From NCBI RefSeq assembly GCF_014873755.1, contig NZ_JADBEG010000001.1, positions 6,918,501 through 6,982,500 of the forward strand: a stretch of DNA of 64,000 bases, read 5' to 3'. The position numbers and the translations under genes are program-made. The notes below the pieces were generated by a model. It had not been told where the DNA came from. It searched no databases and saw only the letters and a program-made list of their open reading frames with translations. This stretch comes from Amycolatopsis lexingtonensis (GTDB lineage Bacteria > Actinomycetota > Actinomycetes > Mycobacteriales > Pseudonocardiaceae). Shown here one piece after another: positions 25,721 to 42,229 of this stretch. Within the stretch, counting starts at the first letter, position 1, and every line of letters starts with the position of its first letter.

Positions 25721-27352
25721 TTACTGGGCGGGAGGTTGCGGACGTGCCTGCCCGAGCAGCGCCGAAAGCCGGACGTCCGGGGTCACCACATCGGGGTCCG
25801 TCCGCACGTCGATGACGCACGGCCGCTGCCGCACCAGCGCACTGGCGATGATCGGCTCCAGCTCTTCCCGATCGTCCACGGTGTATCCGGCCGCGCCCAG
25901 CCCACGCGCCCACGAAGCGAAGTCGGTCAGCGGGATGGACACCCCGGACAGCCGCCCGTGCGTCCGCGCCTGGTGCATGGCGAGCGCGCCGTGCACGCCG
26001 TTCTGGAAGACGACGACCATCACCGGCGCCCGGTACCGCACGGCGGTTTCGATCTCCTGCCCCGTCATCAGCGTCCCGGCGTCCCCCACCATGGCCACGA
26101 CCGTCCGCCGCGGCTCGGTGAGCTTCGCCGCGACGGCGGCCGGCACGGCGTACCCCATCGCGGCGTTGCTCGGACCGAGCTGGCTGCGCGGCGCGGTGAA
26201 GCACCAGTAGCGGTGCATGAACTGCGCGAAGTTGCCGGCGTCGCTGGTCACGATGGTGTCTTCGGGCGCCAGCTTCCGCAACGCCCGGACGACGTCCACC
26301 GGGTGCACCCGCGTGTTCCCGCTCGTGTCGGGCGGGGTCATGAACGTGTGCACGGCCGCGTTCGCCGCCGAAGCGCGCCTGGTCCGCGGCGACGCCACCG
26401 CGCGCAGTTCCCGCAGGAACGGCTCGACCTCGGAGTCGACGCGGAACGTGAGTCCCCGCCGTTTGGGGCTGACGTCGATCCCGGTCCCGACCATCACCAG
26501 CGTCTGCTGCGGCGTCGGGTAGCGGTACGCCTGCGTGGTCACCTCGTCGAGCTGGGTGCCGAGCGCGACCACGAGGTCGGCCCGCTCGAGCGCGTCGAGC
26601 TGCCGGGCCGGGATGCCGAGCCCGAGGTGCCCGGCGTAGCGAGCGTGGTTCTCGGGGAAGGCGTCCTGCCGCCGGAAGGCGTTGTAGACGGGCAGCGCGA
26701 GCTCGTCGGCCACGGCGATCAGCTCGTCCCGCGCCGATCGCGCCCGCCCGCCGACGATCACCACGGGGTATTTCGCCTCGTCCACCAGCTGCGCGACGGC
26801 ATCCGCCGAACGGCCCAGCGTCCCAGAGGCCGGTGGTCGCACCCGCGCCATCGGCTTCGCCGCGTCGTAGGGCATGCCCCAGACGTCGCAGGGCACACCC
26901 AGTACGACCGGTCCCGGCCGCCCCTCCTGCGACGTGGTCAGCGCGTGCGCCAGCAGCCCGGGCAGGCTGTCCGGGTCCGTCACCCGCAACGTCGACTTGG
27001 CGATCGACTCGAACATCGCCGTCAGGTCCGACGTCGGCAGCTCCCCGGACGACGAGGGCACCGGTTCGGTCGCCGGCGTCTCCAGCAGCACGACCATCGG
27101 GGTCTCGTCCTGGTACGCCGTCTGGACGCCGATCGCCAGGCTCGCCGCGCTCGGCCCCCGGCTGGCGAGCAGCACGGCGGGACGCTCGGTGAGCTTGCCC
27201 TCCGCCTCCGCCATGAACGCCGCACCCGCGTCGTGGCGCGCCGAGACCAGCGTGATCTCCCGCTCGCGTTGCAGTGCGTCGAGCAGTTCCAGGAAGGACT
27301 CACCGACCACCGCGTAAACGCGGCGGACACGCGCCTCGGTCAGGATCCGCAC
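25721..27352 (-). CDS. TPP-dependent enzyme, acetolactate synthase-like
   Basis: A 543-residue three-domain enzyme of the acetolactate synthase/benzoylformate decarboxylase superfamily: pyrimidine domain (1-165), central domain (about 185-310) and PP domain with MVGDAGTLMTGQEIETA ending at VVVFQNG. It decarboxylates or ligates 2-oxoacids; the true substrate is unknown, and it lacks an adjacent ilvN regulatory subunit. The residue normally Glu in the RHE motif is Asp here (SARHDAGAAFMAEAEGK). The 5' end is uncertain: GTG 27352 has no ribosome site, and similar proteins begin about eight residues earlier (TVAQTAV...). Confidence 0.85.
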   Translation of the reverse strand: MRILTEARVRRVYAVVGESFLELLDALQREREITLVSARHDAGAAFMAEAEGKLTERPAVLLASRGPSAASLAIGVQTAYQDETPMVVLLETPATEPVPSSSGELPTSDLTAMFESIAKSTLRVTDPDSLPGLLAHALTTSQEGRPGPVVLGVPCDVWGMPYDAAKPMARVRPPASGTLGRSADAVAQLVDEAKYPVVIVGGRARSARDELIAVADELALPVYNAFRRQDAFPENHARYAGHLGLGIPARQLDALERADLVVALGTQLDEVTTQAYRYPTPQQTLVMVGTGIDVSPKRRGLTFRVDSEVEPFLRELRAVASPRTRRASAANAAVHTFMTPPDTSGNTRVHPVDVVRALRKLAPEDTIVTSDAGNFAQFMHRYWCFTAPRSQLGPSNAAMGYAVPAAVAAKLTEPRRTVVAMVGDAGTLMTGQEIETAVRYRAPVMVVVFQNGVHGALAMHQARTHGRLSGVSIPLTDFASWARGLGAAGYTVDDREELEPIIASALVRQRPCVIDVRTDPDVVTPDVRLSALLGQARPQPPAQ

Positions 27353-27397
27353 GGCCGTCTGGGCGACGGTCGCTCCCAGTTGGTATCTAATGAGGAG

Positions 27398-27428
27398 AGC
27401 TTAGGCGGGCACCGTTCAGTGCAGTCAA
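27398..27428 (-). promoter_or_regulatory. candidate promoter of the TPP-enzyme gene
   Basis: Minus-strand TTGACT (27423-27428, five of six consensus -35 bases) and TAAGCT (27398-27403) with a rather long 19-bp spacer, about 45 bp upstream of the annotated start. Confidence 0.45.
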
Positions 27429-27514
27429 GTGATCTTCGCCGAAACCCGGCAAGGATAGGCCGAATGTCCGCTTTGACCGACTGTTAGCCGATCAAGGGAG
27501 CGAGGACCGCAGTC

Positions 27515-28795
27515 TTGGCCGCAACCGAACATGAAACCGTTTTTACTTATGGCGCACCGGCGTTGAAGTACGGAACCGGCGCCAGCGACGAGATCGGCTA
27601 CGACCTGACGCAGTACGGCGCCCACCGAGTGCTCGTTCTGACCGACCCGCAAGTGGCCGCGACCGGCTGGCCGCGCCGCATCGCCGACGGCATCACCGGC
27701 TACGGCATCGAGACCGAGATCTTCGACGGCGTACACGTCGAGCCCACCGATGTCAGCATGCAGAAGGCGGTTGACTTCGCCCGCGGAACCGGCCCGTACG
27801 ACGCCTTCGTCGCCGTCGGCGGTGGCTCCGCCATCGACACCGCCAAGGCGGCGAACCTCCTCACCAGCAACGACGGCGACCTGATGGACTACGTCAACGC
27901 CCCCGTCGGCGGCGGCCGCGCACCGGACCGCCCGCTGAGGCCGCTGGTCGCGGTACCGACCACGACCGGCACGGGCTCCGAGAGCACGACGGTCTGCGTC
28001 CTCGACGTGTTGTCCCTGCGCGTCAAGAGCGGCATCAGCCACCTGCGCCTGCGCCCGACCCTCGCCGTCGTCGACCCGCGGCTGACGGTCAGCCAGCCTC
28101 CCGGCGTGACCGCCGCCAGCGGCATGGACATCCTCTGCCACGCCGCGGAGAGCTACACCGCGAAGCCGTACACCGAGTTCGAGCGCAAACGCCCGGAACA
28201 GCGGGTTCCGTACTGCGGCTCCAACCCCCTGGCCGACATGTTCGCCGAGCAATCCCTCCGGCTGCTGTCCTGGGCCCTGCCCGCGGCCGTACGCGACGGT
28301 TCCGACCTCAAGGCCCGCGAAGCCATGGCCTTGGCCGCGACGTTCGCCGGACTCGGGTTCGGCAACGCCGGCGTCCACATCCCGCACGCGAACGCGTACC
28401 CGATCGCCGGCCAGGTCAGGAACTTCCACCCGGACGGTTACCCGGGCGAAGAACCCATGGTGCCGCACGGCATGGCCGTGTCGTTGACCGCGCCCGCCGC
28501 GTTCCGCTTCACCTTCGACGCGGCCCCGGACCGCCACCTCCGTGTCGCGCGCCTGCTGGCGCCCGACTTCGAGTGGCCCGGCGACTTCGCCGACCACCTG
28601 CCCGCGGTGCTGATCGACCTGATGCGCCGCATCGGCATCCCGGACGGCATCGGCGCCGTCGGCTACACGGAGTCCGATGTGGACTCCCTCGTCGAGGGAA
28701 CGCTGAAGCAGCAACGCCTGCTGGCCACCGCTCCTCGCGAGGCTTCCGAGGAAGACCTGTCGGACATCCTGCGCGAGTCGGTGTCGCTGTGGTGA
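27515..28795 (+). CDS. hydroxyacid-oxoacid transhydrogenase (iron-type ADH family)
   Basis: A 426-residue group III (iron-containing) dehydrogenase. It has the NAD-binding GGGSAIDTAKAANL, then DYVNAPVGGG, PTTTGTGSES and the metal-site region NAGVHIPHANAYPIAG. The YVNAPVG string and the overall length point to the ADHFE1-like transhydrogenase branch, which oxidises 4-hydroxybutyrate or similar acids while reducing 2-oxoglutarate. TTG start at 27515 with AAGGGAGCGAGGA upstream. It is divergent from the TPP-enzyme gene and translationally coupled (GTGA) to the thioesterase that follows. Confidence 0.87.
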   Translation: MAATEHETVFTYGAPALKYGTGASDEIGYDLTQYGAHRVLVLTDPQVAATGWPRRIADGITGYGIETEIFDGVHVEPTDVSMQKAVDFARGTGPYDAFVAVGGGSAIDTAKAANLLTSNDGDLMDYVNAPVGGGRAPDRPLRPLVAVPTTTGTGSESTTVCVLDVLSLRVKSGISHLRLRPTLAVVDPRLTVSQPPGVTAASGMDILCHAAESYTAKPYTEFERKRPEQRVPYCGSNPLADMFAEQSLRLLSWALPAAVRDGSDLKAREAMALAATFAGLGFGNAGVHIPHANAYPIAGQVRNFHPDGYPGEEPMVPHGMAVSLTAPAAFRFTFDAAPDRHLRVARLLAPDFEWPGDFADHLPAVLIDLMRRIGIPDGIGAVGYTESDVDSLVEGTLKQQRLLATAPREASEEDLSDILRESVSLW

Positions 28796-29202
28796 ACGGG
28801 TACCCCCACTGGCAGACGGTTCCGCTGCGCTGGAAGGACAACGACGTCTACGGACACGTCAACAACGTCGTCCACTACTCGCTGATGGACACCGTGATCA
28901 ACACCTGGCTGATCGAGCAGGGTGGTCTCGACATCGAGACCGGGGAGGTGATCGGGCTGTGCGTCGAGTCGCACTGCGGTTATCACTCATCGGTTTCCTT
29001 TCCTGGTTCGCTGCGGGTCGGTTTGCGGGTGGCGCACCTCGGGAAGTCCAGCGTGCGCTACGAGATCGGGATGTACGCCGCCGACGAGACCCTGGTCGCG
29101 GAAGGGCACTTCGTGCACGTCTTCGTGGACCGTGAGTCACGTCGGCCGACACCGCTCTCGGGCAAGCTGCGTGAGGCACTGGAAGCACTGCAACCCGGCT
29201 GA
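28792..29202 (+). CDS. acyl-CoA thioesterase (4HBT hotdog family)
   Basis: A 136-residue single hotdog domain. The motif LRWKDNDVYGHVNNVVHY carries the catalytic Asp of 4-hydroxybenzoyl-CoA thioesterase/YbgC proteins. It hydrolyses an acyl-CoA, probably a product of the neighbouring transhydrogenase pathway, but the substrate is inference. The GTG at 28792 overlaps the preceding stop by 4 bp, which decides the start over the much longer open frame. Confidence 0.9.
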   Translation: MNGYPHWQTVPLRWKDNDVYGHVNNVVHYSLMDTVINTWLIEQGGLDIETGEVIGLCVESHCGYHSSVSFPGSLRVGLRVAHLGKSSVRYEIGMYAADETLVAEGHFVHVFVDRESRRPTPLSGKLREALEALQPG

Positions 29203-29276
29203 CGCGCACCGCCTTGTTCTTCTGGTACCTCCGATCATGCCCGAAGGCACCGACAGAACCGGCGATTCGACTCGAG

Positions 29277-29285
29277 TTGTCCACA
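29277..29285 (+). other. DnaA box TTGTCCACA, first
   Basis: Exact match to the preferred actinobacterial DnaA box, within a 15-bp repeat TCGAGTTGTCCACAG, between two convergent genes (29202 and 29434). Confidence 0.6.
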
Positions 29286-29306
29286 GGCCCCCCGAAAACC
29301 GTCGAG

Positions 29307-29315
29307 TTGTCCACA
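29307..29315 (+). other. DnaA box TTGTCCACA, second
   Basis: Second exact copy, same orientation, 30 bp after the first and in the same 15-bp context. A weaker relative, AAGTCCACA, lies at 29376-29384. Confidence 0.6.
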
Positions 29316-29433
29316 GATTGAAATCAAGGGCTTCCCCGGCCTCCCGACGGAGATAAGCTCAAGGAGCACAGAGATAAGTCCACAGTGGACGAGCTCTCGG
29401 CTGACACGTGCGGCTCGCGACACGGATGGCGAC

Positions 29434-31389
29434 CTAGGCGTCGATCCGGTGGCACCGGGAATCGTGTCCGGCTGACAGCCCCACGGTGGCCGCAGAACCG
29501 CCGCCGGCAGGCGCCCCGCCGGTGGTCGCGGCTCCATCGTCCACGGAGGGACTCAGTGTGGTGTGGCCGTTGCCGGAAGGCGCCCCGCCAACGGCCGCAC
29601 CACCGCCCACGGGCGAACCGGTCGAGGTACCCGCCGGTTCACCACCTGCGTCAGCAGTCGGGCGGGCACCGGTGGCCGCATGGTCGGGCACCGGTGTCGC
29701 CCAAGCCTGCATGAGCTGCGCGTACCGCGCCGACCTGGCCACCAGTTCGGCATGGCTGCCCACCGCGGTTTCGCGCCCGTCCACGACGAGCACGCGATCC
29801 GCGCGCAACGCCGAAGAAAGCCGGTGCGCGATCACCACCAGAACACCACCCCGCGCGGCGAAGGCCCGCTCCGCGCGGGCTTCCGCCACCGGGTCGAGAT
29901 GGGAGGTCGCTTCATCGAGGATCACCACTTGCGCCGCACTGGCGTACACCCTGGCCAACGCGAGCAGCTGCGCTTCGCCCGCGGAGACACCTTCGCCGCC
30001 GTGACCGATTTCGGCGTCGAGGCCGCCCAAGCGCCGCAGTAGCGCGCCCGCGCCCACCGCGTCGGCCGCGGACGACAGGTCGTCGTCCGAAGCTGACGGG
30101 GCGAACAGGCTCACGTTGTCCCGCACCGTTCCCGCGAAGACATACGCCTCCTGCGGGATCAGCGCCACCAGTTCGTGGCGCAAAGCGGCAGGCACGTCCC
30201 GCACCGGGACGCCGCCCAGCAGCACGCGGCCCTCCTGCGGCGCGAGCATCCCGGTGAGCAAGCCGGCCAATGTCGACTTGCCGATGCCACTCGGCCCGAC
30301 GACGGCGAGGTGCTCCCCCGGCCGCAGTCCCAGGTCCAGACCACGGACCACGGGTTCAGCCGACGCACCCCAGCTGAACGTCAGGCCATGCACCCGGACG
30401 TCGATGCCGCGCGGAATCGCCGTGCCGTCGACGACATCGGGCAGTTCGGCCGTCTCCGCCAACCGGCGAAGGGCGACGAGCAGGCGCAGGACGACGGTGC
30501 CGGCTGTGGCCGCCAGGCCGCGAAGGGCCGGCTGCATCGTCGTGGCCAGGTAGACGAGCGCGCCCAGGGCCGCGCCGGCGGTCAGCTCTCCGCTAACTAC
30601 CAACCCCGGTGCCAGGGCGAGCGCGAGAAGCAGCGGAACGAACCCACCGAGCGAGATCACCAGTGCCCGGAGCGCGCTCGAGCGAGCCACGCGGATTGCC
30701 GCGTCAGCCTGAGCGTCGACCGCGTCGTACATCGCCAGTGCGGCGACCGGTTGCGCACCGCAGGCCACGATGTCGCGCATGCCGGACAGCGACGCGCCCG
30801 CCGTCGCTGCCGTGTGCTCGTCGGCCAGCGCCAGCGCGCGCTGGCGGCGAGCCAGCGACGGCAGGAGGCAGACGAAGGCAGCCAACGCAACGATCACCGG
30901 CAGCGCGACCGGCGCCACGAGCGCGCCAGCGACGGTCATGAGGCCGGCGAGCGCGGACGTCGTCGTCACCAGCATGCCGCGGGCCTGTACGAGCAGACCG
31001 GCGGTCGCGTCGCGCACGACCTCGACGTGCTGGGTGATCCGGGCGACGCCGCTGGAGTCCGGTCGGTTGCGCGGTGGGGAGTCGTCGTGCAGCACGCCGC
31101 GGACGACGGCCGTCACGAGAGCGTCGCGCAGGGGTTCGACGACCTTGCCGAGCTGGTGCCAGACCATCCGCGCACCGAACGCGCCGAGCAAGGCGGCCAA
31201 GCCGAACAACGTCAGCCAGCCGAGGCCTGCCGCCGGGTCGCCGACCGCGAAGCCGCGGTCGACGGACAGCTCGACCAGTCGTCCCGAAAAGAAAGCCGGT
31301 ACGCCTTCGAGCAGCGAACAAACCAGCAGCACGACACCGCCGCGCCATTGCCCGGCGAGGGCGGCCCAGTACAGCCTGCGCAGGCTCAC
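29434..31389 (-). CDS. lanT2: class III lanthipeptide ABC exporter subunit 2 (RamB-like)
   Basis: A 651-residue half-transporter: six-helix membrane domain (1-300) fused to an ATPase with Walker A GPSGIGKST, signature VSAGEAQLLALARVY (Ser-Ala-Gly instead of Ser-Gly-Gly) and Walker B VVILDEATSHLD. It probably pairs with the product of 31386-33053 to export the modified peptide. The GTG at 31389 overlaps the upstream stop by 4 bp (GTGA), fixing the start. The last 85 residues form a Gly/Ala/Pro/Thr-rich tail not expected in ABC proteins. Confidence 0.88.
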   Translation of the reverse strand: MSLRRLYWAALAGQWRGGVVLLVCSLLEGVPAFFSGRLVELSVDRGFAVGDPAAGLGWLTLFGLAALLGAFGARMVWHQLGKVVEPLRDALVTAVVRGVLHDDSPPRNRPDSSGVARITQHVEVVRDATAGLLVQARGMLVTTTSALAGLMTVAGALVAPVALPVIVALAAFVCLLPSLARRQRALALADEHTAATAGASLSGMRDIVACGAQPVAALAMYDAVDAQADAAIRVARSSALRALVISLGGFVPLLLALALAPGLVVSGELTAGAALGALVYLATTMQPALRGLAATAGTVVLRLLVALRRLAETAELPDVVDGTAIPRGIDVRVHGLTFSWGASAEPVVRGLDLGLRPGEHLAVVGPSGIGKSTLAGLLTGMLAPQEGRVLLGGVPVRDVPAALRHELVALIPQEAYVFAGTVRDNVSLFAPSASDDDLSSAADAVGAGALLRRLGGLDAEIGHGGEGVSAGEAQLLALARVYASAAQVVILDEATSHLDPVAEARAERAFAARGGVLVVIAHRLSSALRADRVLVVDGRETAVGSHAELVARSARYAQLMQAWATPVPDHAATGARPTADAGGEPAGTSTGSPVGGGAAVGGAPSGNGHTTLSPSVDDGAATTGGAPAGGGSAATVGLSAGHDSRCHRIDA

Positions 31390-33053
31390 TCGTCGTCCTC
31401 CGTGAAGACACCCCGGTAGCCCGGCTCTCCCCAAAGGACGGCGTGCGGGGCGACCGCGCGGATCCGACCTTCCTCGAGCCAGACCACCAGGTCTGCGCGG
31501 GCAGCAGTGGCGGCCCGATGGGTCACGACGACGCGTGTGCGTCCGGGGAGCACCTCAGCCAACGCGCGCTCGACCGCCGCCTCGGTGACCGTGTCGAGGC
31601 TGGCCGTGGCGTCGTCGAAGATCAAGACGCGCGGGTTGTGCACGATCGCCCGGGCCAGCCCGAGCCGCTGGGCCTCGCCGCCGGAGAGGGGCGTTTCGGT
31701 CAGCGGCGTTCGGTAGCCCGAGGGCAGGCGGACGACCACTTCGTCGACCTGCGCAGTCCGGCAGGCGGCCCGGATAGCGGACTCGCCGGCCCACGAGCCG
31801 TAGCCGACCGCGTCGGCGACCGTGGTGCCGAGCAGGACGGGCCGCTCGAACGCGTAGCCCACGACCGCGCGCAGTTCCTCGGGACGGATGCGCTCGAGCG
31901 GGCGGCCGTCGAGGACGACCTGGCCCTCGTTGGGCGCGATCAGCCCACCGACCACCCCGGCCAGCACCGACTTGCCCGAGCCCGAGCGGCCGACGAACGC
32001 GACGTAGGTGCCGCCGTCGATGCGCAGGTCGATCTCGGCGAGCGCGGCCGTGACGCCGACCTGACAGAGCTCCACCGTGCCGTCGCCGGGCAGGAGCGGG
32101 AGCTTGCCGGGCACGGGTTCGGGCTCGTCGAGGACCTCGACGAGCCGTTCGGCGCAGCCGCGCGCCCGCGACAACGTCGTGAGCAGCGGGATCTGGGTGA
32201 TCAGGCCGAGAGCGAGGGCGACGTAGCCGAGCGTGGCCACGACGTCGCCGACGCTGAGCCGGCCGTCGAGCACGCCGAAGCCGGCGGCGGCCAGCACGGA
32301 CAACTCGACCGCCGGGGTCAGCAGGCCGGCGCGCCAGACCATCCGGGCCTGGGTGCGCCACAGGCCCTGTCCGGCGAGCGTCAGCTTCGGGAGCGGGCGT
32401 AGGACGCGCTCCGCCTCACGATCGGCTGTGCCGGACGCGGCGATGGTGCGGAGGCCGGCGACAGCGTCGACCATGCGGGCCGCGAGTTCGCCGGACACCT
32501 GCTGATAGGTGAGAACGTCGTCGGCGGTGCGGCGCAAATGACTCCGCGCGAGCAGCAAAGCGAACGGGATGCTGCCCAGGAAGACCAGCGCCAGCCGCCA
32601 GTCCAGCAGGGCGAGCAGGACGACCGCGCCGGACGAGATGATCAGCGTCGAGCCGCACTGGACGACGATCCTCACGATGCCGCCCGCGCCCGTGCAGTCG
32701 CCGGTGAGGCGGCTGATCGCGTCGCCCTCCGCGAAGCGGGAACGGGCGCCCAGCGCGAACAGCTTGTCCGACAAAGTTCGCCGGAGCCAGGCGGACGCCG
32801 TCGCGGTCAGGCGGGTCGTCAGGATTCCGCCGACGACGTCGGCCGTGATCTCCGCTCCGCCGACCAGCAGCAGCCACGAGACTTCGCGCCCGCTCGGGCG
32901 GCCCGCGACCACCGCGTCCACTGCGGCCGCGAGCGCGCCGGGCAGGAGGAGGCCGGCCGCGGTGGCGACCAGCGCGGTGACCACGACGGCGGCCAAGCGG
33001 AAGCGGTCGAGGCCGGCCACCTTGACCAGCAGCCGATCGGCGGGGCCGCGCAT
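31386..33053 (-). CDS. lanT1: class III lanthipeptide ABC exporter subunit 1 (RamA-like)
   Basis: A 555-residue ABC half-transporter with a membrane domain (about 1-300), Walker A GRSGSGKS, signature LSGGEAQRLGLARAI and Walker B VLIFDDATASLD. There is no N-terminal C39 peptidase domain, as in ramA/amfB, so leader removal must be done by another protease. ATG 33053 has AAGGAG five bases upstream. It lies downstream of lanA behind a hairpin and is coupled to lanT2. Order and sizes match ramA of the ramCSAB operon. Confidence 0.88.
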   Translation of the reverse strand: MRGPADRLLVKVAGLDRFRLAAVVVTALVATAAGLLLPGALAAAVDAVVAGRPSGREVSWLLLVGGAEITADVVGGILTTRLTATASAWLRRTLSDKLFALGARSRFAEGDAISRLTGDCTGAGGIVRIVVQCGSTLIISSGAVVLLALLDWRLALVFLGSIPFALLLARSHLRRTADDVLTYQQVSGELAARMVDAVAGLRTIAASGTADREAERVLRPLPKLTLAGQGLWRTQARMVWRAGLLTPAVELSVLAAAGFGVLDGRLSVGDVVATLGYVALALGLITQIPLLTTLSRARGCAERLVEVLDEPEPVPGKLPLLPGDGTVELCQVGVTAALAEIDLRIDGGTYVAFVGRSGSGKSVLAGVVGGLIAPNEGQVVLDGRPLERIRPEELRAVVGYAFERPVLLGTTVADAVGYGSWAGESAIRAACRTAQVDEVVVRLPSGYRTPLTETPLSGGEAQRLGLARAIVHNPRVLIFDDATASLDTVTEAAVERALAEVLPGRTRVVVTHRAATAARADLVVWLEEGRIRAVAPHAVLWGEPGYRGVFTEDDE

Positions 33054-33100
33054 CTCACTCCTTCGGACAGGTACCGCCGGGGCGGTGCCGGAGCGCAGAA

Positions 33101-33150
33101 TGAACGTGCGGGAGCGGCGCACTTGGCCTGTGCCGCTCCCGCACCGTTCA
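33101..33150 (-). terminator. hairpin between lanA and the transporter genes (attenuator)
   Basis: Perfect 13-bp stem GTGCGGGAGCGGC/GCCGCTCCCGCAC extended by TGAAC/GTTCA across one bulged base, about 18 bp in all with a 13-nt loop, 32 bp after the lanA stop. No T-run. Such a stem can protect the lanA mRNA end or partly end transcription, giving more precursor than exporter. Confidence 0.7.
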
Positions 33151-33181
33151 CCTCGGCACTACTCGCCGGCGGACCGCCAGG

Positions 33182-33328
33182 TCAGTGGTAGCAGGTCAGC
33201 AGGCTGATGGAGCTGTGGGCGCAGGCGGCGAGCAAGCTCAGGTTCGACGCGCCGCCGTGACCGCCACCGTGGCCGCCGTCGAGCACCTCGGGGGTCTCCA
33301 TTGCCTGCAGCTCCAGAACGAGTTCCAT
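33182..33328 (-). CDS. lanA: class III lanthipeptide precursor (RamS/AmfS-like)
   Basis: A 48-residue precursor with ATG at 33328 after GGAAGGAA. The leader (1-26) begins MELVLELQAMETPE, matching the LQxM(E/D)TP motif of RamS and AmfS that LanKC recognises, then a GGHGGGHGG stretch (18-26). The core from about residue 28 holds Ser28-x2-Ser31-x4-Cys36 and Ser39-x2-Ser42-x3-Cys46, two labionin/lanthionine-forming motifs as in SapB. The expected product is a small amphipathic, morphogen-like peptide; spore-coat or aerial-growth surfactant function is inference. It is 36 bp after lanKC. Confidence 0.9.
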   Translation of the reverse strand: MELVLELQAMETPEVLDGGHGGGHGGASNLSLLAACAHSSISLLTCYH

Positions 33329-33364
33329 CGGTGTTCCTTCCTTCGGTTTCCTCGGCTCCGCCGG

Positions 33365-35920
33365 TCAGCGACCGGAGGTCTGGGGGGACGGCGTGCCGCC
33401 CAGGAGGGGCAGCACCTCCTTGCCGTCCAGGAGGGCGGCAAGTGCCAGGAGGATTCCCGCGCCGCCGGTCTTGACGTCCATCGACAGGCGCAGCAGCTGG
33501 TTGCCGGGGAACGCGAGGCCGCCCTTGAACGGGACCGCGTACCAGGACAGCCGCGCCAGGTGCAGGTCGATCGCCGCGCGGATCGGCGGCGACGGGTTCG
33601 GGTCCATGCCCAGCGCGACCGCCAGTCCGCACCGGCCGAGGAGGAGGCCCGGGTGGATCACGAACTCGCCGCGGCACGATTCGCGCAGTGCGGGGAGGCT
33701 CTCGCAGGCGTTGGCGTCCGGGCAGTGCCGCGCCAGCTGCTCGGCGACCAGGAGGATGCCGGCGCTGCCGACACCGGCGTAAGGCAGCGTGCGAGCCGCG
33801 CCGTCGCGAACCTGCAGTGAGCCGTCGTCGGTCTCGACGCACTCCTCGAGGTCGCGGGTCAACGCTTGGTCGGCGAAGGACAGCCAGGCGGGCTCGCCGG
33901 TCCGCTCGAAGAGCCGGGTGAACAGCAGAGCGGGCCCGGACCAGCCGGACAGCAGGCCGGCGCGGGCGAAGTTGCCGGGCGGCGGCGCCGTCTCCAGCGC
34001 CTCGGCCAGCCGGACCGCCGTGGCCAGCGCCTGGCGGCCGAACTCGTTGTCCTGGCGGACCGTCGCGAAGTGCAGCATCGCGAGCCCGATACCGGCGAGA
34101 CCGCCTTCGAGGCCGTGGTCGGTCGTCTGCTCGACCAGCCGCGCGGACGACGCCAGCAGCCGGGTGGCCTCGCCGTGGTGACCGAAGTTCTCCAGCACGT
34201 AGGCGATGCCGTAGCTGCCGTCGTAGAAACCGGGCCGCGTCGGCGGGTCGCGGCGGATCGAATCGATCAGCCAGCGCTCGTGCTCGGGGAACCGGCCGGC
34301 GCCGCTGACGTCGAGGGCGTGCAGCACGCCCGCGGCACCGACGCCGAAGCAGGCGCCGCCGACGCTGAACTGCTCGATGTCGCCGGGGAACAGCCGGTCC
34401 TCACGCTCGGGGGTCGCACTCGCCAGGATCGCCTCGGCGATCTGCTTGCGGACCAGCGGCCAGTCCGGTTTCTCCTGGTCGAGCTCGGTGTGGACCGGCA
34501 CCGACCGCGCAGGAGCCGTACGCGAGGCCAGCACCGCGACCGCGGCGTCGGCGTAGCCCGCGGGGAGCGCGAACCGGCGTTCGACGAACTCCGCGATGCC
34601 GGGCAGCTTGGCCGGGGCGAGCTCCATCAGCTGGGACAGCGGCAGGAACAGCCACAGCCGCAACGCCGCGAGCGCGTGCTCGTCGATCTCGAAGCCGGTG
34701 CGGTCGGCCGGGGCGCGGAACCCGGGCGCGCCCAGCGCCGGGCGGTCGCCGGACTCGACGTCGAAGGCCATTTCGAAGTCGATCAGGGAGATCCGGCCGT
34801 CGTCGTCGATCAGGATGTTCAGCGGGTGCAGGTCGCCGAAGACGACACCGCGGGCGTGGATGGCCTCGATCGTCTTCTCGACGCCGTCGATGACGTCGAG
34901 CGCGCGCCGGGCGTAGTCGGCGAGGTCGGCGGCCGTCGTCCCGCGCCTGGTCAGCGGGTAGTTGTAGGCCAGCCAGCTGCCCAGCGAGCGGCCGGGCAGG
35001 TACTCCATCGCCAGGTAGTGGTGCTCCCAGACCGTGAACCGCTCGAGGACCTTCGGCACCCCGGGGACGCCGGCCAGCCGGTCGAGGACGTCGTGCTCGC
35101 GGCGGAGCCGTTCGACGGCGTCGACCCCTGCCTTGTCGAGGCCGGCGTGCGGGCGGGCCTCCTTGAGGACGACCTCGTCGCCGCCCTCCTTGGGCTCCGC
35201 GACGTAGACGCCGCCCCCGTTCGAGAAATGCAGGGACCTCATCACCCGGTAGCGGAATTGACTCGGGTCGCCCGCTTTACGCGCGGCGACACTACTCCGC
35301 AAACATGCCGGAATTTTCACCCAATCGGGGACGGAGAACGTCGGCTCCCGCTTGTCGGGGACGAGCCGGCCGTCCGGCTTGCGGATCGCGAGGACGCGGT
35401 TGCCGTCGTGTTCGACCCACTGCTCGGTGAATCCTCCGTAACGCACGTAGAGGGGTCCGTCACCGTATCGGAGGTCGCTCAGGATATAGGCGCCGTGCTC
35501 ACCCTCGAGCCGAGTCGAGAGGTCTTCGAGAACCCGCTCGAGCTGCCGGTCGTCCGGCGGGTAAATCGTCACCAGCTTGGCGCTGCCGTCCCGCGGCGCG
35601 TATTTCGAATTCCGGGCGAGCAGGGTCAGCATCGAGCGGAGGTGCTTGTACGGGATGCGGTGCTCGAGGCAGTACTCGTGGACCTGCTCGAGTACGCGCC
35701 GAGCGTTGTCCAGACCGGCGGAAACGTGGATCTTCCAGCCCTGACCGGGGAGAACCTGACCGCGGGGGTGCAGCATGCGCCAGACTCCGCGGTCGGCGGT
35801 GACCCAGCCGGACGGCGCCGGCAGCGCCGAAGCGAATTCGTCGACCGGCGTGCCGATTTCCGCTTGTTCGTCGTAGAACAACGGGTCGGCGAAGCAATAT
35901 GCTTCGTAGCGCAGGTCCAT
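33365..35920 (-). CDS. lanKC: class III lanthionine synthetase LanKC (RamC-like)
   Basis: An 851-residue three-domain synthetase. Residues 1-200 are the phosphoSer/Thr lyase region (YKHLRSMLTLLARNSKYAPR), 210-480 the kinase (Lys253, catalytic GDLHPLN with Asp363, metal-binding Asp381 in DFE), and 500-851 a LanC-like cyclase. It phosphorylates Ser/Thr of LanA, eliminates phosphate and closes labionin/lanthionine rings. I see no clear WCYG or CHG zinc motif in the cyclase domain, as is usual for class III. ATG 35920 follows GGAGGGG; the frame to 36013 has no ribosome site. First gene of the operon. Confidence 0.95.
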   Translation of the reverse strand: MDLRYEAYCFADPLFYDEQAEIGTPVDEFASALPAPSGWVTADRGVWRMLHPRGQVLPGQGWKIHVSAGLDNARRVLEQVHEYCLEHRIPYKHLRSMLTLLARNSKYAPRDGSAKLVTIYPPDDRQLERVLEDLSTRLEGEHGAYILSDLRYGDGPLYVRYGGFTEQWVEHDGNRVLAIRKPDGRLVPDKREPTFSVPDWVKIPACLRSSVAARKAGDPSQFRYRVMRSLHFSNGGGVYVAEPKEGGDEVVLKEARPHAGLDKAGVDAVERLRREHDVLDRLAGVPGVPKVLERFTVWEHHYLAMEYLPGRSLGSWLAYNYPLTRRGTTAADLADYARRALDVIDGVEKTIEAIHARGVVFGDLHPLNILIDDDGRISLIDFEMAFDVESGDRPALGAPGFRAPADRTGFEIDEHALAALRLWLFLPLSQLMELAPAKLPGIAEFVERRFALPAGYADAAVAVLASRTAPARSVPVHTELDQEKPDWPLVRKQIAEAILASATPEREDRLFPGDIEQFSVGGACFGVGAAGVLHALDVSGAGRFPEHERWLIDSIRRDPPTRPGFYDGSYGIAYVLENFGHHGEATRLLASSARLVEQTTDHGLEGGLAGIGLAMLHFATVRQDNEFGRQALATAVRLAEALETAPPPGNFARAGLLSGWSGPALLFTRLFERTGEPAWLSFADQALTRDLEECVETDDGSLQVRDGAARTLPYAGVGSAGILLVAEQLARHCPDANACESLPALRESCRGEFVIHPGLLLGRCGLAVALGMDPNPSPPIRAAIDLHLARLSWYAVPFKGGLAFPGNQLLRLSMDVKTGGAGILLALAALLDGKEVLPLLGGTPSPQTSGR

Positions 35921-36366
35921 CCGGGATACCCCTCCGTGCGATCCCCCCGGGCACCGCGACCCCGGGACAAGGAATATTCCCCCATGCCGAACAGCCCTGG
36001 GCCAATCCGCCAACCCGGGGGTTCAACTGGGCTATCCGAGGTAGGCAAAAAGGTCAGTTGTCCGTCGACAGCTGAACCGAGGGTGATTTTTACCGGACAG
36101 CCCACCACTCCATAGTGGTGTAACACGAAGATTTTTACGCCATTCCCGCAGGTCCACACAAGGGCCGAACGGAATAACCCGCCGAATTGGCAGAATGCCA
36201 TCAAGGCGGCACGGTGATCATTTCACCCGGTAGCCGCCGGTCACGTGATCCCGGAATCGTCCACAGTGGAGCATGACGTGGCCCGCGCCACGCCGCGGCA
36301 CCTCGGCGGACGGCCCCGCCGGTACCACGGAGTAAGTTGGCGCCCGGCGAGCGGAAGGAGGAACGG
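35921..36366. other. lan operon upstream region
   Basis: A 446-bp divergent region between lanKC (minus) and a membrane-protein gene (plus), noticeably less GC-rich between 36040 and 36200. It holds two GATTTTTAC repeats and a 7-bp inverted repeat (separate entry) and a GGAATATTCC palindrome at 35971-35980. No gene for a RamR-type LuxR regulator is present. No coding frame is convincing. Confidence 0.5.
36085..36138 (-). promoter_or_regulatory. candidate regulator-binding repeats of the lan operon
   Basis: Direct repeats GATTTTTAC at 36085-36093 and 36130-36138 (45 bp apart) flank the inverted repeat CACCACT-CCAT-AGTGGTG at 36103-36120, 165-220 bp upstream of lanKC. In streptomycetes the ramCSAB promoter is bound by the LuxR-type protein RamR at repeated sites; a similar role here is inference. 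Confidence 0.45.
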
Positions 36367-36732
36367 GTGATCTTCGGATTCGCCGTGACGGTCGCTGTGG
36401 CCGCCGCGCTCGTCGCGCTGTGGAGCTTCATCCAGTCGGCGCGCAACCGGCTGCCGGACAACCCCCTCCTGATCGCGCTCGCGGTCCTGGAACTGCTGCT
36501 GGTCGCGCAGCTGGTGATCGGCATCGTGCTGCTCGCCGGCGGTGCACACCCCGGCAGCCTGGCGACCTATCTGGCCTACCTGATCGGCAGCCTCGTCGTG
36601 CTGCCGGTCGGCGCCGCCTGGGCGCTGGCCGAGCGGAGCCGCTCGAGCACGGCGGTGCTGGGCATCGCGTGCCTGGCCATCCCGGTGATGGTGCTGCGAC
36701 TGAACGAGGTGTGGAGTGGAGCAACAGCGTAG
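36367..36732 (+). CDS. integral membrane protein, 121 aa
   Basis: A 121-residue protein with four predicted membrane helices (VIFGFAVTVAVAAALVAL; LLIALAVLELLLVAQLVIGIVLL; TYLAYLIGSLVVLPVGAAWAL; TAVLGIACLAIPVMVL). GTG 36367 is preceded by AAGGAGGAA. The gene overlaps the next membrane-protein gene by 17 bp, so the two are cotranslated and may form one complex. No known domain. Its promoter region is shared with the lan operon on the other strand. Confidence 0.82.
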   Translation: MIFGFAVTVAVAAALVALWSFIQSARNRLPDNPLLIALAVLELLLVAQLVIGIVLLAGGAHPGSLATYLAYLIGSLVVLPVGAAWALAERSRSSTAVLGIACLAIPVMVLRLNEVWSGATA

Positions 36733-37126
36733 GACGGCCTCCGGCCCCGGACGCGTGCTCGTCGCCGTGTACGCGATCTTCGCGCTGGCCGCGACGTCGC
36801 GGGCCGGCGTCCAGATCGGCACGAAGTTCCACGAAGCCCCGCTGGCCTACCTGCTCTCGGCGTTCGCCGCGGTCGTCTACATCGTCGCGACGATCGCGCT
36901 GGCCCGCCGCGGTGACGGCTGGTGGCGCGTGGCCCTCGTGGCCTGCTCGATCGAGCTGCTGGGCGTGCTGACCATCGGCACGCTGAGCCTGGTCGACGCG
37001 GCCGCCTTCCGCCACCCGACCGTCTGGTCGGTCTACGGCGAGGGCTACCTGTTCATCCCGCTCGTCCTGCCCGTCATCGGGCTGTACTGGCTGCGCAAGT
37101 CCTCGCCGGCCAAGATCGCGGCCTAA
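36716..37126 (+). CDS. integral membrane protein, 136 aa
   Basis: A 136-residue protein with about four membrane helices and a polar N-terminus (MEQQRRTASGPGR). GTG 36716 lies inside the end of the previous gene (17-bp overlap); AACGAGG upstream serves as the ribosome site. Loop sequences such as VYGEGYLFIPLVLPVIGLYWLR are conserved-looking, but I do not recognise the family. Probably the second subunit of a two-protein membrane unit with the preceding product. Confidence 0.82.
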   Translation: MEQQRRTASGPGRVLVAVYAIFALAATSRAGVQIGTKFHEAPLAYLLSAFAAVVYIVATIALARRGDGWWRVALVACSIELLGVLTIGTLSLVDAAAFRHPTVWSVYGEGYLFIPLVLPVIGLYWLRKSSPAKIAA

Positions 37127-37288
37127 CAGTACGGGAACTGCACGTAGGCCCCGCGAGGACAATAAATACGGATTCGACCGGCGACTTTCGTCGGTTCCGG
37201 ACATTCCCCCAAAACTCGGACACTCTTGTCGTTCGGTCCCCACCGGCTTTCCCCCCACGCGGTTCTCCCCCGCGTGAAAGGAGTGAGC

Positions 37289-38005
37289 GTGAAATTCGGC
37301 AAGTTCGTCCTGCTGGCCGCGAGCACCGCACTGGCCGTCGTCGGCCTCGGCGGCCCCGCGTCCGCCGACAGCACCCCGCAGGCCCAGCCGTCGATCATCG
37401 GCGGCAGTACCGCAACGAGCGGCCCCTGGGCGGCCCGGCTGTTCGTGAACGGCCAGCAGAACTGCACCGCGACGATCATCGCGCCGCAGTACATCCTCAC
37501 CGCCAAGCACTGCGTCAGCAGCTCCGGCACCTACACGTTCCGGATCGGCAGCCTGGACCAGACCAGCGGCGGCACGATGGCCACCGGCTCCACCATCACG
37601 CGCTACCCGGGCGCCGCCGACCTGGCGATCGTCAAGCTCACGACCTCGGTCAGCGCGACGTACTCGCCGCTCGGCAGCGTCGGTGACGTCGCGGTCGGGC
37701 AGAACGTCTCGGTCTACGGCTGGGGCGCGACCAGCCAGTGCGGCTCCGAGATCAACTGCCAGTCGCGGTACCTGAAGGTCGCGACGGTCCGGGTCAACTC
37801 GATCGGCTGCAGCGACTACACCGGCGGGGTCGCGGTCTGCGCGAACCGCGTCGACGGCATCACCGCCGGCGGCGACTCGGGCGGTCCGATGTTCGCCTCC
37901 GGGCGCCAGGTCGGCGTCGCGTCGACCAGCGACCGGGTGAACAACACCGCATACACGAACATCACGCGCTATCGCAGCTGGATTTCGCAGGTGGCCGGAG
38001 TCTGA
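37289..38005 (+). CDS. secreted trypsin-like serine protease (S1 family)
   Basis: A 238-residue secreted protease. The signal peptide covers 1-26 (cleavage after GGPASA), a short propeptide ends before IIGG (37-40, the mature N-terminus), and the catalytic triad is His74 (TAKHC), Asp111 (ADLAIVKL) and Ser197 (GDSGGP). Cys pairs fit the chymotrypsin fold. GTG 37289 has AAAGGAG upstream. Its terminator has been split by the IS element inserted 30 bp past the stop codon. Confidence 0.94.
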   Translation: MKFGKFVLLAASTALAVVGLGGPASADSTPQAQPSIIGGSTATSGPWAARLFVNGQQNCTATIIAPQYILTAKHCVSSSGTYTFRIGSLDQTSGGTMATGSTITRYPGAADLAIVKLTTSVSATYSPLGSVGDVAVGQNVSVYGWGATSQCGSEINCQSRYLKVATVRVNSIGCSDYTGGVAVCANRVDGITAGGDSGGPMFASGRQVGVASTSDRVNNTAYTNITRYRSWISQVAGV

Positions 38006-38016
38006 TTCCTGACGGC

Positions 38017-38036
38017 AAAAGGGGCCCGGTCGCGTG
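38017..38036. terminator. left half of a terminator split by the IS element
   Basis: Stem arm AAAAGGGGCCCGGTC (38017-38031), then loop GCGT with the target duplication CGTG at 38033-38036. The matching arm is at 39474-39488. Rejoined, they form a perfect 15-bp stem with a tetraloop and a T-run on both sides, the shared terminator of the protease gene and sixA. Confidence 0.85.
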
Positions 38037-38073
38037 TGAACTGACCCCTGGAAGTTGGACTGGCTAGGTAAAG

Positions 38074-38928
38074 CTAGGGCTTGAGGGCCTGGGCTCGGTA
38101 TTCGGCCGGGCTCAGGCCTTCAAGCGTGGTCGAGATGCGGATCGTGTTGTACCAGTCGATGTACTCGTCCAGCTCGGCGGTGAACTCCTCGACGGTGTCG
38201 AAGCTGTTGTGGTGGAACAGTTCTTCCTTCAAATGACCGAAGAAGTTCTCGGCCATGGAGTTGTCCAGGCAGTTCGCTCGCCGGGACATCGACTGGGCCA
38301 GGCCCGCGTCCTCGATCAACCTCCGCCAGGAGACGTGCTGGTACTGGAACCCCTGGTCGGAGTGCACCAACGGCCTGGCGGCGCCGTCGAGGGTCGCGAT
38401 CGCCGCGCGCAGCGACGAGTTCGTCAGTTCCAAACTCGGGGACGGGCCATGGCTGTAGGCGATCACGGATCGGTCGAACAAGTCGATCACCGGGGACAGG
38501 TAGACCTTGCGGTCGCCGATACGGAACTCGGTCACGTCGGTGACCCATTTCGTGTCCGGAGCCGCCGCGGTGAACTGGCGATCCAGCACGTTGGCCGCGA
38601 CCGTGCCGATCTGCCCGAGCCAGGACCGATAGCGGCGCGGCCGCCGGACCTGGCAGAACAGGCCCAGCATGTTCATCAGCTTCAACACCGTCTTCTTAGC
38701 TACCCGCCAGCCCCCGCGGCGCAGCATCGCGTGCACACGCCGATGCCCGTAGCGGCCGCGGGCGGCCTCGAACTGCTCGGTGACCGCCGCCTTCAGCTCG
38801 ACCTGCGGGTCGGGCCGGGTCAGCCGGGCCTGGTGGTAGAAGAACGTCGAGCGTGCCAGCCCGGCGGCCGCCAGCAGCACCGCCAGCGGATACTCGGCCT
38901 TGAGGGTGGCGATGACCTGGGTTTTCAC
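38074..38928 (-). CDS. IS3-family transposase OrfB (DDE integrase core)
   Basis: A 284-residue catalytic subunit. An N-terminal helical region with HTH_21-type motif (GRYGHRRVHAMLRRGG) precedes the rve core with the DDE triad: Asp in WVTDVTEF, Asp in VHSDQGFQY and Glu in NSMAENFFGHLKEEL. The C-terminal YNTIRISTTLEGLSPAEYR is the usual IS3 ending. The GTG start overlaps the orfA stop by 4 bp (GTGA). Most IS3 elements make OrfAB by a -1 frameshift; no slippery run is obvious here, so restart at the overlap seems possible. Confidence 0.94.
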   Translation of the reverse strand: MKTQVIATLKAEYPLAVLLAAAGLARSTFFYHQARLTRPDPQVELKAAVTEQFEAARGRYGHRRVHAMLRRGGWRVAKKTVLKLMNMLGLFCQVRRPRRYRSWLGQIGTVAANVLDRQFTAAAPDTKWVTDVTEFRIGDRKVYLSPVIDLFDRSVIAYSHGPSPSLELTNSSLRAAIATLDGAARPLVHSDQGFQYQHVSWRRLIEDAGLAQSMSRRANCLDNSMAENFFGHLKEELFHHNSFDTVEEFTAELDEYIDWYNTIRISTTLEGLSPAEYRAQALKP

Positions 38929-39452
38929 CCTCGCCCCTGCTCCTTCAAGGCCCGCAATTTTTCCAGCAACGCCACCTTCGCCGACAACTCCAGGTTCTCC
39001 TGCCGCAGGCGATCCAGCTCGCTGAGCCCGGCTGGGTCAACCGGCTTGCCCGGCCGGCCTTTCGGCTTGGGCCGCAACGCGTCCTCGCCCTCACGCCGGT
39101 ACACCCTGACCCAGTTTTCCACCAGCTTCGGCGACGACAGATCATGCTCACGCGCCAGCTCCATCGCCGACGCCTCACCATCGACGAACCGGCGCACGAC
39201 CTCACGCTTGAACTCGAAGGTGAACGACCGCTTACCCGGCTCCCTCATCAGCGCTCCCGCGCTCCGCAACCTCCAACGATCACGCAAGCGTCGCACCGCC
39301 ATCGGCGACACGCCCAACCGGGTCGCGACCACCTTCGCGCCATACCCGGCCTCGAACAACGCAACAGCGGACTCCCGCTGCTGCTCAGACAACGAACTTC
39401 CTGGATACACCAAACCGCTCCCCGGAAAGTCGGAACTGGATTCCCAGTCCAA
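38925..39452 (-). CDS. IS3-family transposase OrfA (helix-turn-helix)
   Basis: Up to 175 residues with two helix-turn-helix units (AVALFEAGYGAKVVATRLGV and VVRRFVDGEASAMELAREH) and a C-terminal Leu-zipper-like coil (LDRLRQENLELSAKVALLEKL), as in the IS150-type branch of IS3. It binds the element ends. The start is uncertain: the frame opens at 39452, inside the right inverted repeat, while TTG 39413 or GTG 39410 follow a GGGGAG and are more likely. Confidence 0.9.
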   Translation of the reverse strand: MDWESSSDFPGSGLVYPGSSLSEQQRESAVALFEAGYGAKVVATRLGVSPMAVRRLRDRWRLRSAGALMREPGKRSFTFEFKREVVRRFVDGEASAMELAREHDLSSPKLVENWVRVYRREGEDALRPKPKGRPGKPVDPAGLSELDRLRQENLELSAKVALLEKLRALKEQGRG

Positions 39453-39473
39453 CTTCCGGGGAGCGGTTCACGT

Positions 39474-39488
39474 GACCGGGCCCCTTTT
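39474..39488. terminator. right half of the split terminator
   Basis: GACCGGGCCCCTTTT, exact complement of 38017-38031. It still gives the minus-strand sixA transcript one arm only, 12 bp after the sixA stop codon. Confidence 0.8.
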
Positions 39489-39499
39489 CTCCGGGATGT

Positions 39500-40003
39500 T
39501 CAGGCGTCGCGAGGCCGGAAGAAAGCGACGAGTTCGGCAGTGGCGAGTGCGTCCCAGGGATCGGTGGTCTCGAGCACGGCGGCGGCACCGGTCGGGAACT
39601 TGACCTGGACGTCGCGGGTGTCGTCGCCGTGCCCGGCCAGGTGCAGGGTCAGGTCACTGACCCCGGGCTCGTGCCCGACGAGGGCGACGGTGGTGACTTC
39701 GGGTGGCGTCTGGCTCGCGGCGTTCAGCAGTTCGGGGACGTCGGCGCCGTAGAGGTCTTCGTCGAACGTCACAGGCGGTGCGGCGGGGAGTTCTCCGGCG
39801 ACGTGCTGCCAGGTCTCGCGCGTACGGCGAGCGGTGGAGCAGAAGACGAGCTCGGGGACGTAGCCGGCGTCGACGAGCCAGCGGCCGAGCTTCGGCGCAG
39901 CCCGGAGCCCGCGGGGCGCCAGGGGACGATCGTGGTCGGGGAGGCCGTCCGACCAGTCCGACTTGGCGTGGCGGACGACGATGAGCCGTCGGGGCGCGTC
40001 CAT
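39500..40003 (-). CDS. sixA: SixA-type phosphohistidine phosphatase
   Basis: A 167-residue histidine-phosphatase (branch 1). The catalytic motif is VVRHAKSDW (Arg11, His12), with a second His in LVGHEPGVSDL and Arg in STARRTRET; short length and context are those of SixA, which removes phosphate from phosphohistidine. ATG 40003. Downstream, its terminator has lost one arm to the IS insertion, so read-through into the IS is possible. Confidence 0.88.
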   Translation of the reverse strand: MDAPRRLIVVRHAKSDWSDGLPDHDRPLAPRGLRAAPKLGRWLVDAGYVPELVFCSTARRTRETWQHVAGELPAAPPVTFDEDLYGADVPELLNAASQTPPEVTTVALVGHEPGVSDLTLHLAGHGDDTRDVQVKFPTGAAAVLETTDPWDALATAELVAFFRPRDA

Positions 40004-40018
40004 CAGCTGAGCCTAACG

Positions 40019-40045
40019 AGCCCGTGGCCGAGACGACCACGGGCT
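40019..40045 (-). terminator. hairpin terminator after the 68-residue hypothetical gene
   Basis: Stem AGCCCGTGG/CCACGGGCT with a 9-nt loop, 7 bp after the stop codon at 40052 on the minus strand and just before sixA. Confidence 0.65.
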
Positions 40046-40051
40046 TGCGGG

Positions 40052-40258
40052 TCACCAGTTGGTGCGGCGCCCGGACGGGTCGTGTCCCCGCGTGCCGGAC
40101 CGGCGTTGCGGCCCGGGTTCGATCGCCTCTTCGGAACGCGGTTCCGGGGCGTACACCGGCTGGCGGAACAGACCTCCGTACCGCTCACCCTGGGGTGCGG
40201 TGACCGCTCCGGGCCGGGGCTCCTCGGTGACGGGGTGGCTGAACAGCGAACTGTCCAT
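40052..40258 (-). CDS. small hydrophilic hypothetical protein
   Basis: A 68-residue protein from ATG 40258 (MDSSLFSHPVTEEPRPG...) to TGA 40052, rich in Pro, Arg, Glu and Gly and probably disordered. Codon third positions are strongly G/C. No good ribosome site precedes this ATG; an in-frame GTG at 40297 would add 13 residues. The hairpin just after the stop supports a real transcript. It lies 54 bp downstream of the DUF5994-like gene in the same direction. Function unknown. Confidence 0.55.
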   Translation of the reverse strand: MDSSLFSHPVTEEPRPGAVTAPQGERYGGLFRQPVYAPEPRSEEAIEPGPQRRSGTRGHDPSGRRTNW

Positions 40259-40311
40259 TGTGGAGTGAGTGATCGTGGATCCTTTCGTGGACGCCACGGG
40301 AGTGGCGTGTG

Positions 40312-40746: not shown

Positions 40747-40873
40747 CGACCGGATTGGGGCCGAGGACGGCGCAGGCTCGACCGCTCGCGCACGAAATGC
40801 TCTCGGACACCACTCAGCGTACACGACGATCTCGCGGAGTGTGTTAAGACTGGGTTCTAGCAAAGGGGCCACC

Positions 40874-42043: not shown

Positions 42044-42044
42044 G

Positions 42045-42117
42045 TGGGCCGCCTGGGGCTCGAACCCAGAACCTACGGATTAAAAGTCCGCAGCTCTACC
42101 AATTGAGCTAACGGCCC
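42045..42117 (-). tRNA. tRNA-Lys(TTT)
   Basis: A 73-nt tRNA on the minus strand. Acceptor GGGCCGT pairs with GCGGCCC (one wobble) with discriminator A; anticodon stem GCGGA/TCCGT with loop CTTTTAA gives TTT. CCA is not encoded. A TAAACT -10 box at 42126-42131 lies just upstream. Confidence 0.96.
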
Positions 42118-42229
42118 GCGCCCCCAGTTTAGCCAGGCCCTGGTCCGGCACCTCCACACCGGGGTGCGGCTGAGGCCCCTCGTAAGGTCAAGACTGGTTC
42201 TCGGCCGGTGGACCGCCCATGATGCGGGG

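Follow-up and report, generated by a model that had tools for sequence, protein, structure and literature searches.

The stretch of DNA analysed here, called the window below, is 64,000 nucleotides long and lies at 6.92-6.98 Mb in the genome of Amycolatopsis lexingtonensis, which consists of a single contig of 10.74 Mb. Read as ORFs, the minus strand of the window carries four genes in the order lanKC-lanA-lanT1-lanT2, which is also the order of ramCSAB, together with a hairpin between lanA and lanT1 and a conserved motif upstream of lanKC (Table 1). A previous sequence-only reading had claimed a class III lanthipeptide operon in this ramCSAB-like order, and had considered a host outside Streptomyces. 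Our analysis agrees on both points, as all four ORFs are present on the minus strand with family models matched above their cut-offs, and the host is an Amycolatopsis.

Table 1. Genes and other features of the lanthipeptide operon, in positions of the window
Feature	Position	Strand	Description	Evidence
lanKC	33365..35920	-	class III lanthionine synthetase, 851 aa	RamC_N, kinase and LanC-like parts; NF038151, PF25816, PF00069, PF05147
lanA	33182..33328	-	SapB/AmfS-type precursor, 48 aa, MELVLELQAMETPEVLDGGHGGGHGGASNLSLLAACAHSSISLLTCYH	PF19402, NF033212, sequence
Hairpin	33106..33144	-	conserved, about 15-16 pairs, loop of 7, 31-nt core at 33110-33140	fold, conservation, covariation
lanT1	31386..33053	-	ABC half-transporter	PF00005, PF00664; start moved from GTG 33122 to ATG 33053
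lanT2	29434..31389	-	ABC half-transporter	PF00005, PF00664; start moved from TTG 31434 to GTG 31389
Upstream motif	36001..36024	-	conserved, 24 nt, GAACCCCCGGGTTGGCGGATTGGC, 80 nt ahead of the lanKC start	strongest block in 64 aligned upstream regions

The synthetase gene starts with ATG, having GGAGGGG eight bases upstream, and its product scores 1044.5 bits against the class III model NF038151 (cut-off 575) and 356.1 bits against the class IV model (cut-off 650). LanKC is alignable with solved LanKC chains such as 8sao, and is the sole protein of its own genome above the class III cut-off. Its 15 best named relatives all come from Amycolatopsis, and no CHG is seen by eye in its LanC part. 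Elsewhere in the same genome, a class II synthetase LanM is encoded at C1:1484059-1484964 (L001; TIGR03897, 575.1 bits, cut-off 304). The precursor LanA belongs to the SapB/AmfS family, with 58.7 bits against the RamS model PF19402 (cut-off 24.3) and 58.3 bits against the SapB_AmfS model NF033212 (cut-off 25). These scores are far above chance. The LQxMETP leader motif and the two core motifs reported earlier are also confirmed: the leader contains LELQAMETP, with LELQ as the LxLQ motif, and the core holds SNLSLLAAC (x4, that is, four residues before the Cys) followed by SSISLLTC (x3), both of which fit SxxSx(2-5)C. LanA is the only RamS match in its own genome, even at E 1. For the two half-transporters the starts given in Table 1 are the most likely ones, that of lanT1 having AAGGAG four bases upstream and that of lanT2 overlapping the LanT1 stop as GTGA, and the mechanical ORF starts would be too long. 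None of the 15 proteins predicted from 25721 to 42766 is a response regulator; lacking such a neighbour of the ramR type, the operon is expected to be controlled differently from one under ramR, a point against the explanation preferred below. The response regulators of the genome that come nearest to a streptomycete regulator reach 46, 44, 41 and 39%, the best of them (46%) lying at 1.86 Mb with the runners-up close behind.

On the genus scale, a RamS match is present in 65 of 80 Amycolatopsis genomes (74 rows, of which two, from G010, are the same place). All listed places were taken, which gives 72 loci and, with the window, 73 loci. Among them, 65 are orthologues of the window operon, with LanKC 63-93% identical to that of the window, while the other eight differ, four having a LanKC at 44-46% and four having no LanKC match within the stretch. 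These second RamS-type loci occur in some Amycolatopsis (L070, L074, L080 and L081; L084, L090, L096 and L097), and the hairpin of Table 1 is absent from them. Both LanT1 and LanT2 are found in 63 of the 65 orthologous loci, the exceptions being L069, without LanT1, and L085, which ends at a contig end. Two small divergent genes upstream (36337-36732 and 36716-37126), for which profile searches give no family match, are present in 51 of the 65, and a 4HBT thioesterase lies downstream in 40. The operon thus appears to keep a fixed chromosomal place, and inheritance is more likely than mobility. Also near the operon are an IS3-family insertion element at 38074-39452 (-), made of a transposase and an HTH ORF, and a gene for a trypsin-like protease of secreted type at 37226-38005 (+). 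None of the other 64 orthologous stretches has a match to the transposase, and the protease is found in 16 of the 65. As for the upstream motif, no second copy of GAACCCCCGGGTTGGCGGATTGGC occurs in its own genome with up to 3 mismatches, and it is a candidate for an operon-specific promoter or operator. A second conserved stretch, at 36080-36130 toward the divergent gene at 36337, contains the palindrome CACCACT-ATGG-AGTGGTG.

The search with LanA brings 34 hits, most of the precursors being 71-98% identical, and those bearing an organism name all belong to Amycolatopsis. Compared with the other SapB/AmfS family lanthipeptides of Amycolatopsis, which are annotated by NCBI and uncharacterised, the operon is orthologous and only details of the core differ: the second motif SSISLLTC is unique to the window among the 65 loci, and the precursor of the window ends with YH. 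The peptide is a further SapB/AmfS-type lanthipeptide, whose relatives are already so named by NCBI. The view of the sequence-only reading that the precursor is easily missed therefore does not hold, Pfam and NCBIfam both detecting LanA as well, although several orthologues are labelled 'hypothetical protein' by JGI. The same reading was right in remarking that the first motif has x4 rather than the x3 of SapB, so that ring sizes may differ, but this spacing is a habit of the genus Amycolatopsis. The x4-x3 arrangement is observed in 52 of the 65 orthologous loci and x2-x3 in 10, while the motif of L094 would be x2 but for an additional Cys; for L069 and L098 the scan gave no two-motif precursor, the leader of L098 running into another frame. 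Outside the genus, 29 loci with LanKC divide into 21 with x4-x3, 5 with x3-x3 and 3 with none. The x4 spacing is within the published range of the core motif, SxxSx(2-5)C, as given in PMC11251773. On the LanKC tree the 11 rows of x2 type (L094 included) form one branch, and the x2 label takes one change with L094 as x2 and two changes with L094 scored 'single'. The x3-x3 rows join near the base, but as long branches, and x3 as the older state is only suggested.

The most unusual feature of the operon is the hairpin between lanA and lanT1, on which the sequence-only reading is silent. It begins 37 nt past the lanA stop and ends 52 nt ahead of the likely lanT1 start, and the whole 128-nt gap folds at -76 kcal/mol, compared with a shuffled mean of -56.4 (sd 4.1), none of 200 shuffles being as low. 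The 31-nt core, GGGAGCGGCACAGGCCAAGTGCGCCGCTCCC, is found in every one of the 65 orthologous loci at 0-4 substitutions, and in none of the 8 other RamS loci with 5 substitutions allowed. At the level of whole genomes, a degenerate pattern of the hairpin is matched in 65 of 80 Amycolatopsis genomes, each time perfectly although up to 3 mismatches were permitted, and the pattern reversed as a control matches none of the 80. The 15 genomes without the pattern are the same 15 without a RamS match. Two other origins were considered and ruled out for the hairpin: a protein-coding one, given that the pairs covary and the flanking lengths vary, and a mobile repeat, given one pattern copy per genome except in G035. 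The two copies of G035 both lie at contig ends, and by the RNA model G008 has a further site, of the second type.

Exact words also separate the hairpin from the rest of the region. The hairpin 31-mer of the window occurs unchanged in 48 of the 64 other loci, and no other 31-mer within the 11 kb region reaches more than 23; with LanKC below 80% (51 loci) the numbers are 35 against 13, and with LanKC below 70% (22 loci) 10 against 6. For 17-mers the hairpin is ahead in the 64 loci (53 vs 49) and in the 51 loci (40 vs 37), but in the 22 most distant loci a coding 17-mer is ahead of it, 14 vs 12, which we count against the explanation preferred below. Covariation was studied in a genus set of 58 distinct hairpin sequences and a family set of 36 chosen sequences. 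In the genus set ten of 15 pairs are invariant and the other five vary on both sides, with 99.7% of cells paired, while 8 of 16 pairs change on both sides in the family set, with 97.0% of cells paired. For the family set, none of 500 shuffles reaches these pair numbers, and slid controls have at most 3 pairs changing on both sides. The fifth of the five pair measures, further pair types, is reached by 348 of 500 shuffles for the genus and 27 of 500 for the family, and is likewise counted against. Within Amycolatopsis the loop GGCCAAG is nearly invariant; outside the genus the loop is variable, the inner stem AGCGGC-R-CA...TG-Y-GCCGCT is nearly always kept, and the outer pairs swap freely. The tail after the stem, GTTCATTCTG, is only weakly T-rich, worse in some relatives, and the tails vary, which leaves plain intrinsic termination uncertain and is also counted against the preferred explanation; it passes a simple terminator scan, though there are 7 such sites in the region against 2.2 expected. 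Up to E 1, Rfam gives four matches, none of them on the hairpin's own strand and none at the gathering score, and a plasmid collection searched with the hairpin stretch gives 23 records, the best 20 all short and with E 0.5 or worse. We found no report of a lanA-lanT1 hairpin in the open-access literature, and an earlier description of a ramS-ramA stem-loop in Streptomyces may exist.

Within the family, the RNA model of the hairpin matches 149 of 390 Pseudonocardiaceae genomes and 21 of 46 genera at E 0.001, with 68 genomes from Amycolatopsis and 81 from other genera. We opened 34 of these places, chosen mostly by score, 31 from other genera and 3 from Amycolatopsis, with 50 matching genomes of other genera outside the sample. 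A LanKC homologue followed by the hairpin is seen in 29 of the 31 places from other genera; L182, a contig of 4.2 kb, shows only a LanA, and L188 is without the operon. Inside Amycolatopsis, L192, L201 and L203 are second-type matches of 38-41 bits without LanKC, and in L203 a hairpin with the inner-stem letters sits between convergent genes. The RNA search at the class level finds 14 of 394 genomes at E 0.001 including the host; the other 13 reach at most 36.1 bits and are treated as background, at loci of about 3 kb or less from which a more distant operon would escape. One short locus of this search, L210, has a LanKC-like match of 29.7% over 202 residues. Among the Pseudonocardiaceae precursors, the LanA core of L180 (SRASLLLCGDSSLSLTTCN) is one residue from the Streptomyces SapB-type core of L226 (SRASLLLCGDSSLSITTCN), and the hairpin of L180 is of the Pseudonocardiaceae type despite this Streptomyces-like core.

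The genomes missing the hairpin show which genes it accompanies. Of the 15 Amycolatopsis genomes that have neither RamS nor hairpin, seven were searched for LanKC, and five of them (G028, G054, G064, G065 and G075; L220-L224) have an intact LanKC, 74-79% identical, at the same place (L008 apparently shares its genome with L220). LanT1 and LanT2 are missing there, and 634-853 nt lie between LanKC and the thioesterase, in which no LxLQ precursor is seen; the RNA model finds nothing at that place and only weak matches elsewhere in L221. Since these five genomes are without lanA, the transporters and the hairpin but have LanKC, the hairpin goes with lanA and the transporters and not with LanKC. 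Of the remaining two, G021 has a more distant LanKC (50%; pieces 47-67%), and G005 has one only at 33%. In G170, the genome of L188, LanKC is absent (the best match, of 38.8 bits, covers the kinase part alone; the assembly has 200 contigs and 7% contamination), and an intact hairpin stands in a 147-nt gap between conserved neighbours (5027-5173 of L188), which counts against the preferred explanation. Apart from the hairpin this gap has no similarity to relatives; the hairpin may be a relic there, or may now act for the adjacent thioesterase gene, which has its 3' end toward the hairpin.

For comparison with known systems we took eight ram-like records, six from Streptomyces, one from Embleya and one from Nonomuraea, and sought a hairpin within 130 nt of lanA. 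A strong hairpin of -30 to -37 kcal/mol follows lanA in all six records where the filter found lanA, with sequences unrelated to that of the window, and the gap of L129, folded separately, is strongly structured (L227 was left out). The RNA model recognises none of the eight records, and gives a weak match of 27.4 bits just past the L024 precursors. Probably, then, lanA is generally followed by a hairpin, and what distinguishes the Pseudonocardiaceae is its frozen sequence. The window operon shares with SapB (ramCSAB, S. coelicolor) and AmfS (amf, S. griseus) the KC-A-T-T order, a RamS-family precursor, a class III LanKC and, going by the streptomycete-type records examined, a strong hairpin after lanA. 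It differs from them in the first motif, theirs being x3 (the SapB-type core of L226 is x3-x3), and in hairpin letters that are frozen family-wide and unrelated to the streptomycete ones. It also differs in that no response regulator adjoins the operon, whereas one does in L129 and L225, the two records whose annotated stretch extends past LanT2; ramR adjoins ramB in Streptomyces according to PMC5650626. Durhapeptin of S. durhamensis, as described in PMC13380574, is like the window product a hydrophobic two-motif class III peptide of the same family, but has SxxSxxxC in both motifs and a response regulator gene flanking its cluster.

A further difference from the streptomycetes concerns the chaplins, for which the host genome has no match. 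A chaplin match at E 0.001 is present in 31 of the 80 Amycolatopsis genomes, but only that of G011 is strong (66.6 bits, in a frame of 119 aa), the others having at most 32.4 bits in frames of at least 994 aa. The control, by contrast, gives 3 to 11 matches, up to 103.5 bits, in each of six Streptomyces genomes.

Upon the observed gene content, gene order, conservation and hairpin covariation we build the following reading, to which as a whole we give a probability of roughly 70%: a SapB/AmfS-type operon at a fixed place, with the hairpin as attenuator or protective 3' end, and with a product of morphogen type. Judging from family membership, LanKC would act by phosphorylation, elimination and cyclisation to form lanthionine or labionin rings from both S-x2-S-x3/4-C motifs of LanA, the peptide would be exported by LanT1 and LanT2, and the leader would be removed by a protease encoded elsewhere. 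For a core that starts at ASNLS the calculated monoisotopic mass is 2274.11, or 2202.07 less four waters, and other starts or a loss of 5-6 waters may occur. Like SapB, the peptide most likely assists the emergence of hyphae into the air. For the hairpin, position and conservation suggest a function most likely as partial terminator and/or as protective mRNA 3' end, which would leave much lanKC-lanA message and little lanT message. Operon-internal terminators of cellulolytic clostridia, which are reported to set ABC transporter stoichiometry (PMC9045158), are similar in being stem-loops within an operon that are proposed to lower the downstream transporter message; the stem of the window, unlike them, is conserved in letters and not in pairing alone. 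A sequence-specific partner is suspected because the inner stem, and in Amycolatopsis the loop, are fixed in letters and not just in pairing, and a protein or an RNA may read the hairpin sequence.

As an alternative, an ordinary terminator or mRNA-stabilising stem, having no sequence-specific partner and owing its constancy to common descent together with the constraints of GC-rich pairing, has in our estimate somewhat less than an even chance. Hairpin formation alone seems to be enough in the Streptomyces, Embleya and Nonomuraea records, where the hairpins after lanA are strong and unrelated in sequence, and the hairpin of L203 has a terminator-like position. Pairing constraints, however, leave the letters free, yet the exact 31-mer is retained in three quarters of the loci across LanKC identities of 63-93%, and a plain terminator would hardly be expected to have a loop nearly fixed in the genus and an inner stem nearly fixed in the family while the outer pairs swap freely. 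Tentative, and on balance doubtful, is the proposal that Pseudonocardiaceae have in the hairpin a dedicated regulatory RNA element of sequence-specific action. The inner stem AGCGGC(R)CA / TG(Y)GCCGCT would then be bound by a protein (an RNase, a terminator or an anti-terminator factor), or be released as a 3'-derived small RNA, and the element would couple peptide dose to export and could outlive the operon as in G170. It is improbable that the site works instead as DNA, a palindromic operator to which a dimeric regulator of lanT1 binds, and not as an RNA structure. Its symmetric arms, its place upstream of lanT1 and the base changes mirrored on both arms would suit an operator, but the letter-variable outer pairs stay complementary with G-U pairs included (columns 9-12 with 44-47), which an operator does not need, and many sequences of the genus have an A-C mismatch at columns 22/34.

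The nature of the product allows another explanation, namely that the peptide is mainly antimicrobial or a signal, and not a surfactant of aerial growth, which we regard as possible but rather unlikely. Class III products show several activities, and durhapeptin, according to PMC13380574, induced aerial hyphae in some species only and not in its producer; moreover, the partnership of SapB with chaplins cannot simply carry over from streptomycetes to a host that lacks a chaplin match. Against this, LanA matches the RamS model itself, and the presence of the operon in 65 of 80 Amycolatopsis species would fit physiology better than a weapon.

The peptide operon, of a kind ordinary for actinomycetes, lies here in a genus nearly without convincing chaplin genes, and Amycolatopsis is thus a setting in which to ask whether a SapB-like peptide serves aerial growth without chaplins. 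The x3, x4 and x2 first motifs of the related operons form a natural series on the tolerance of LanKC for ring size. As for the hairpin, it makes a concrete candidate for control by a conserved RNA element within a peptide operon, for which 65 genomes of one genus and those of other genera offer natural material, with variants, with loss together with lanA, and with retention in one genome that has no longer the genes.
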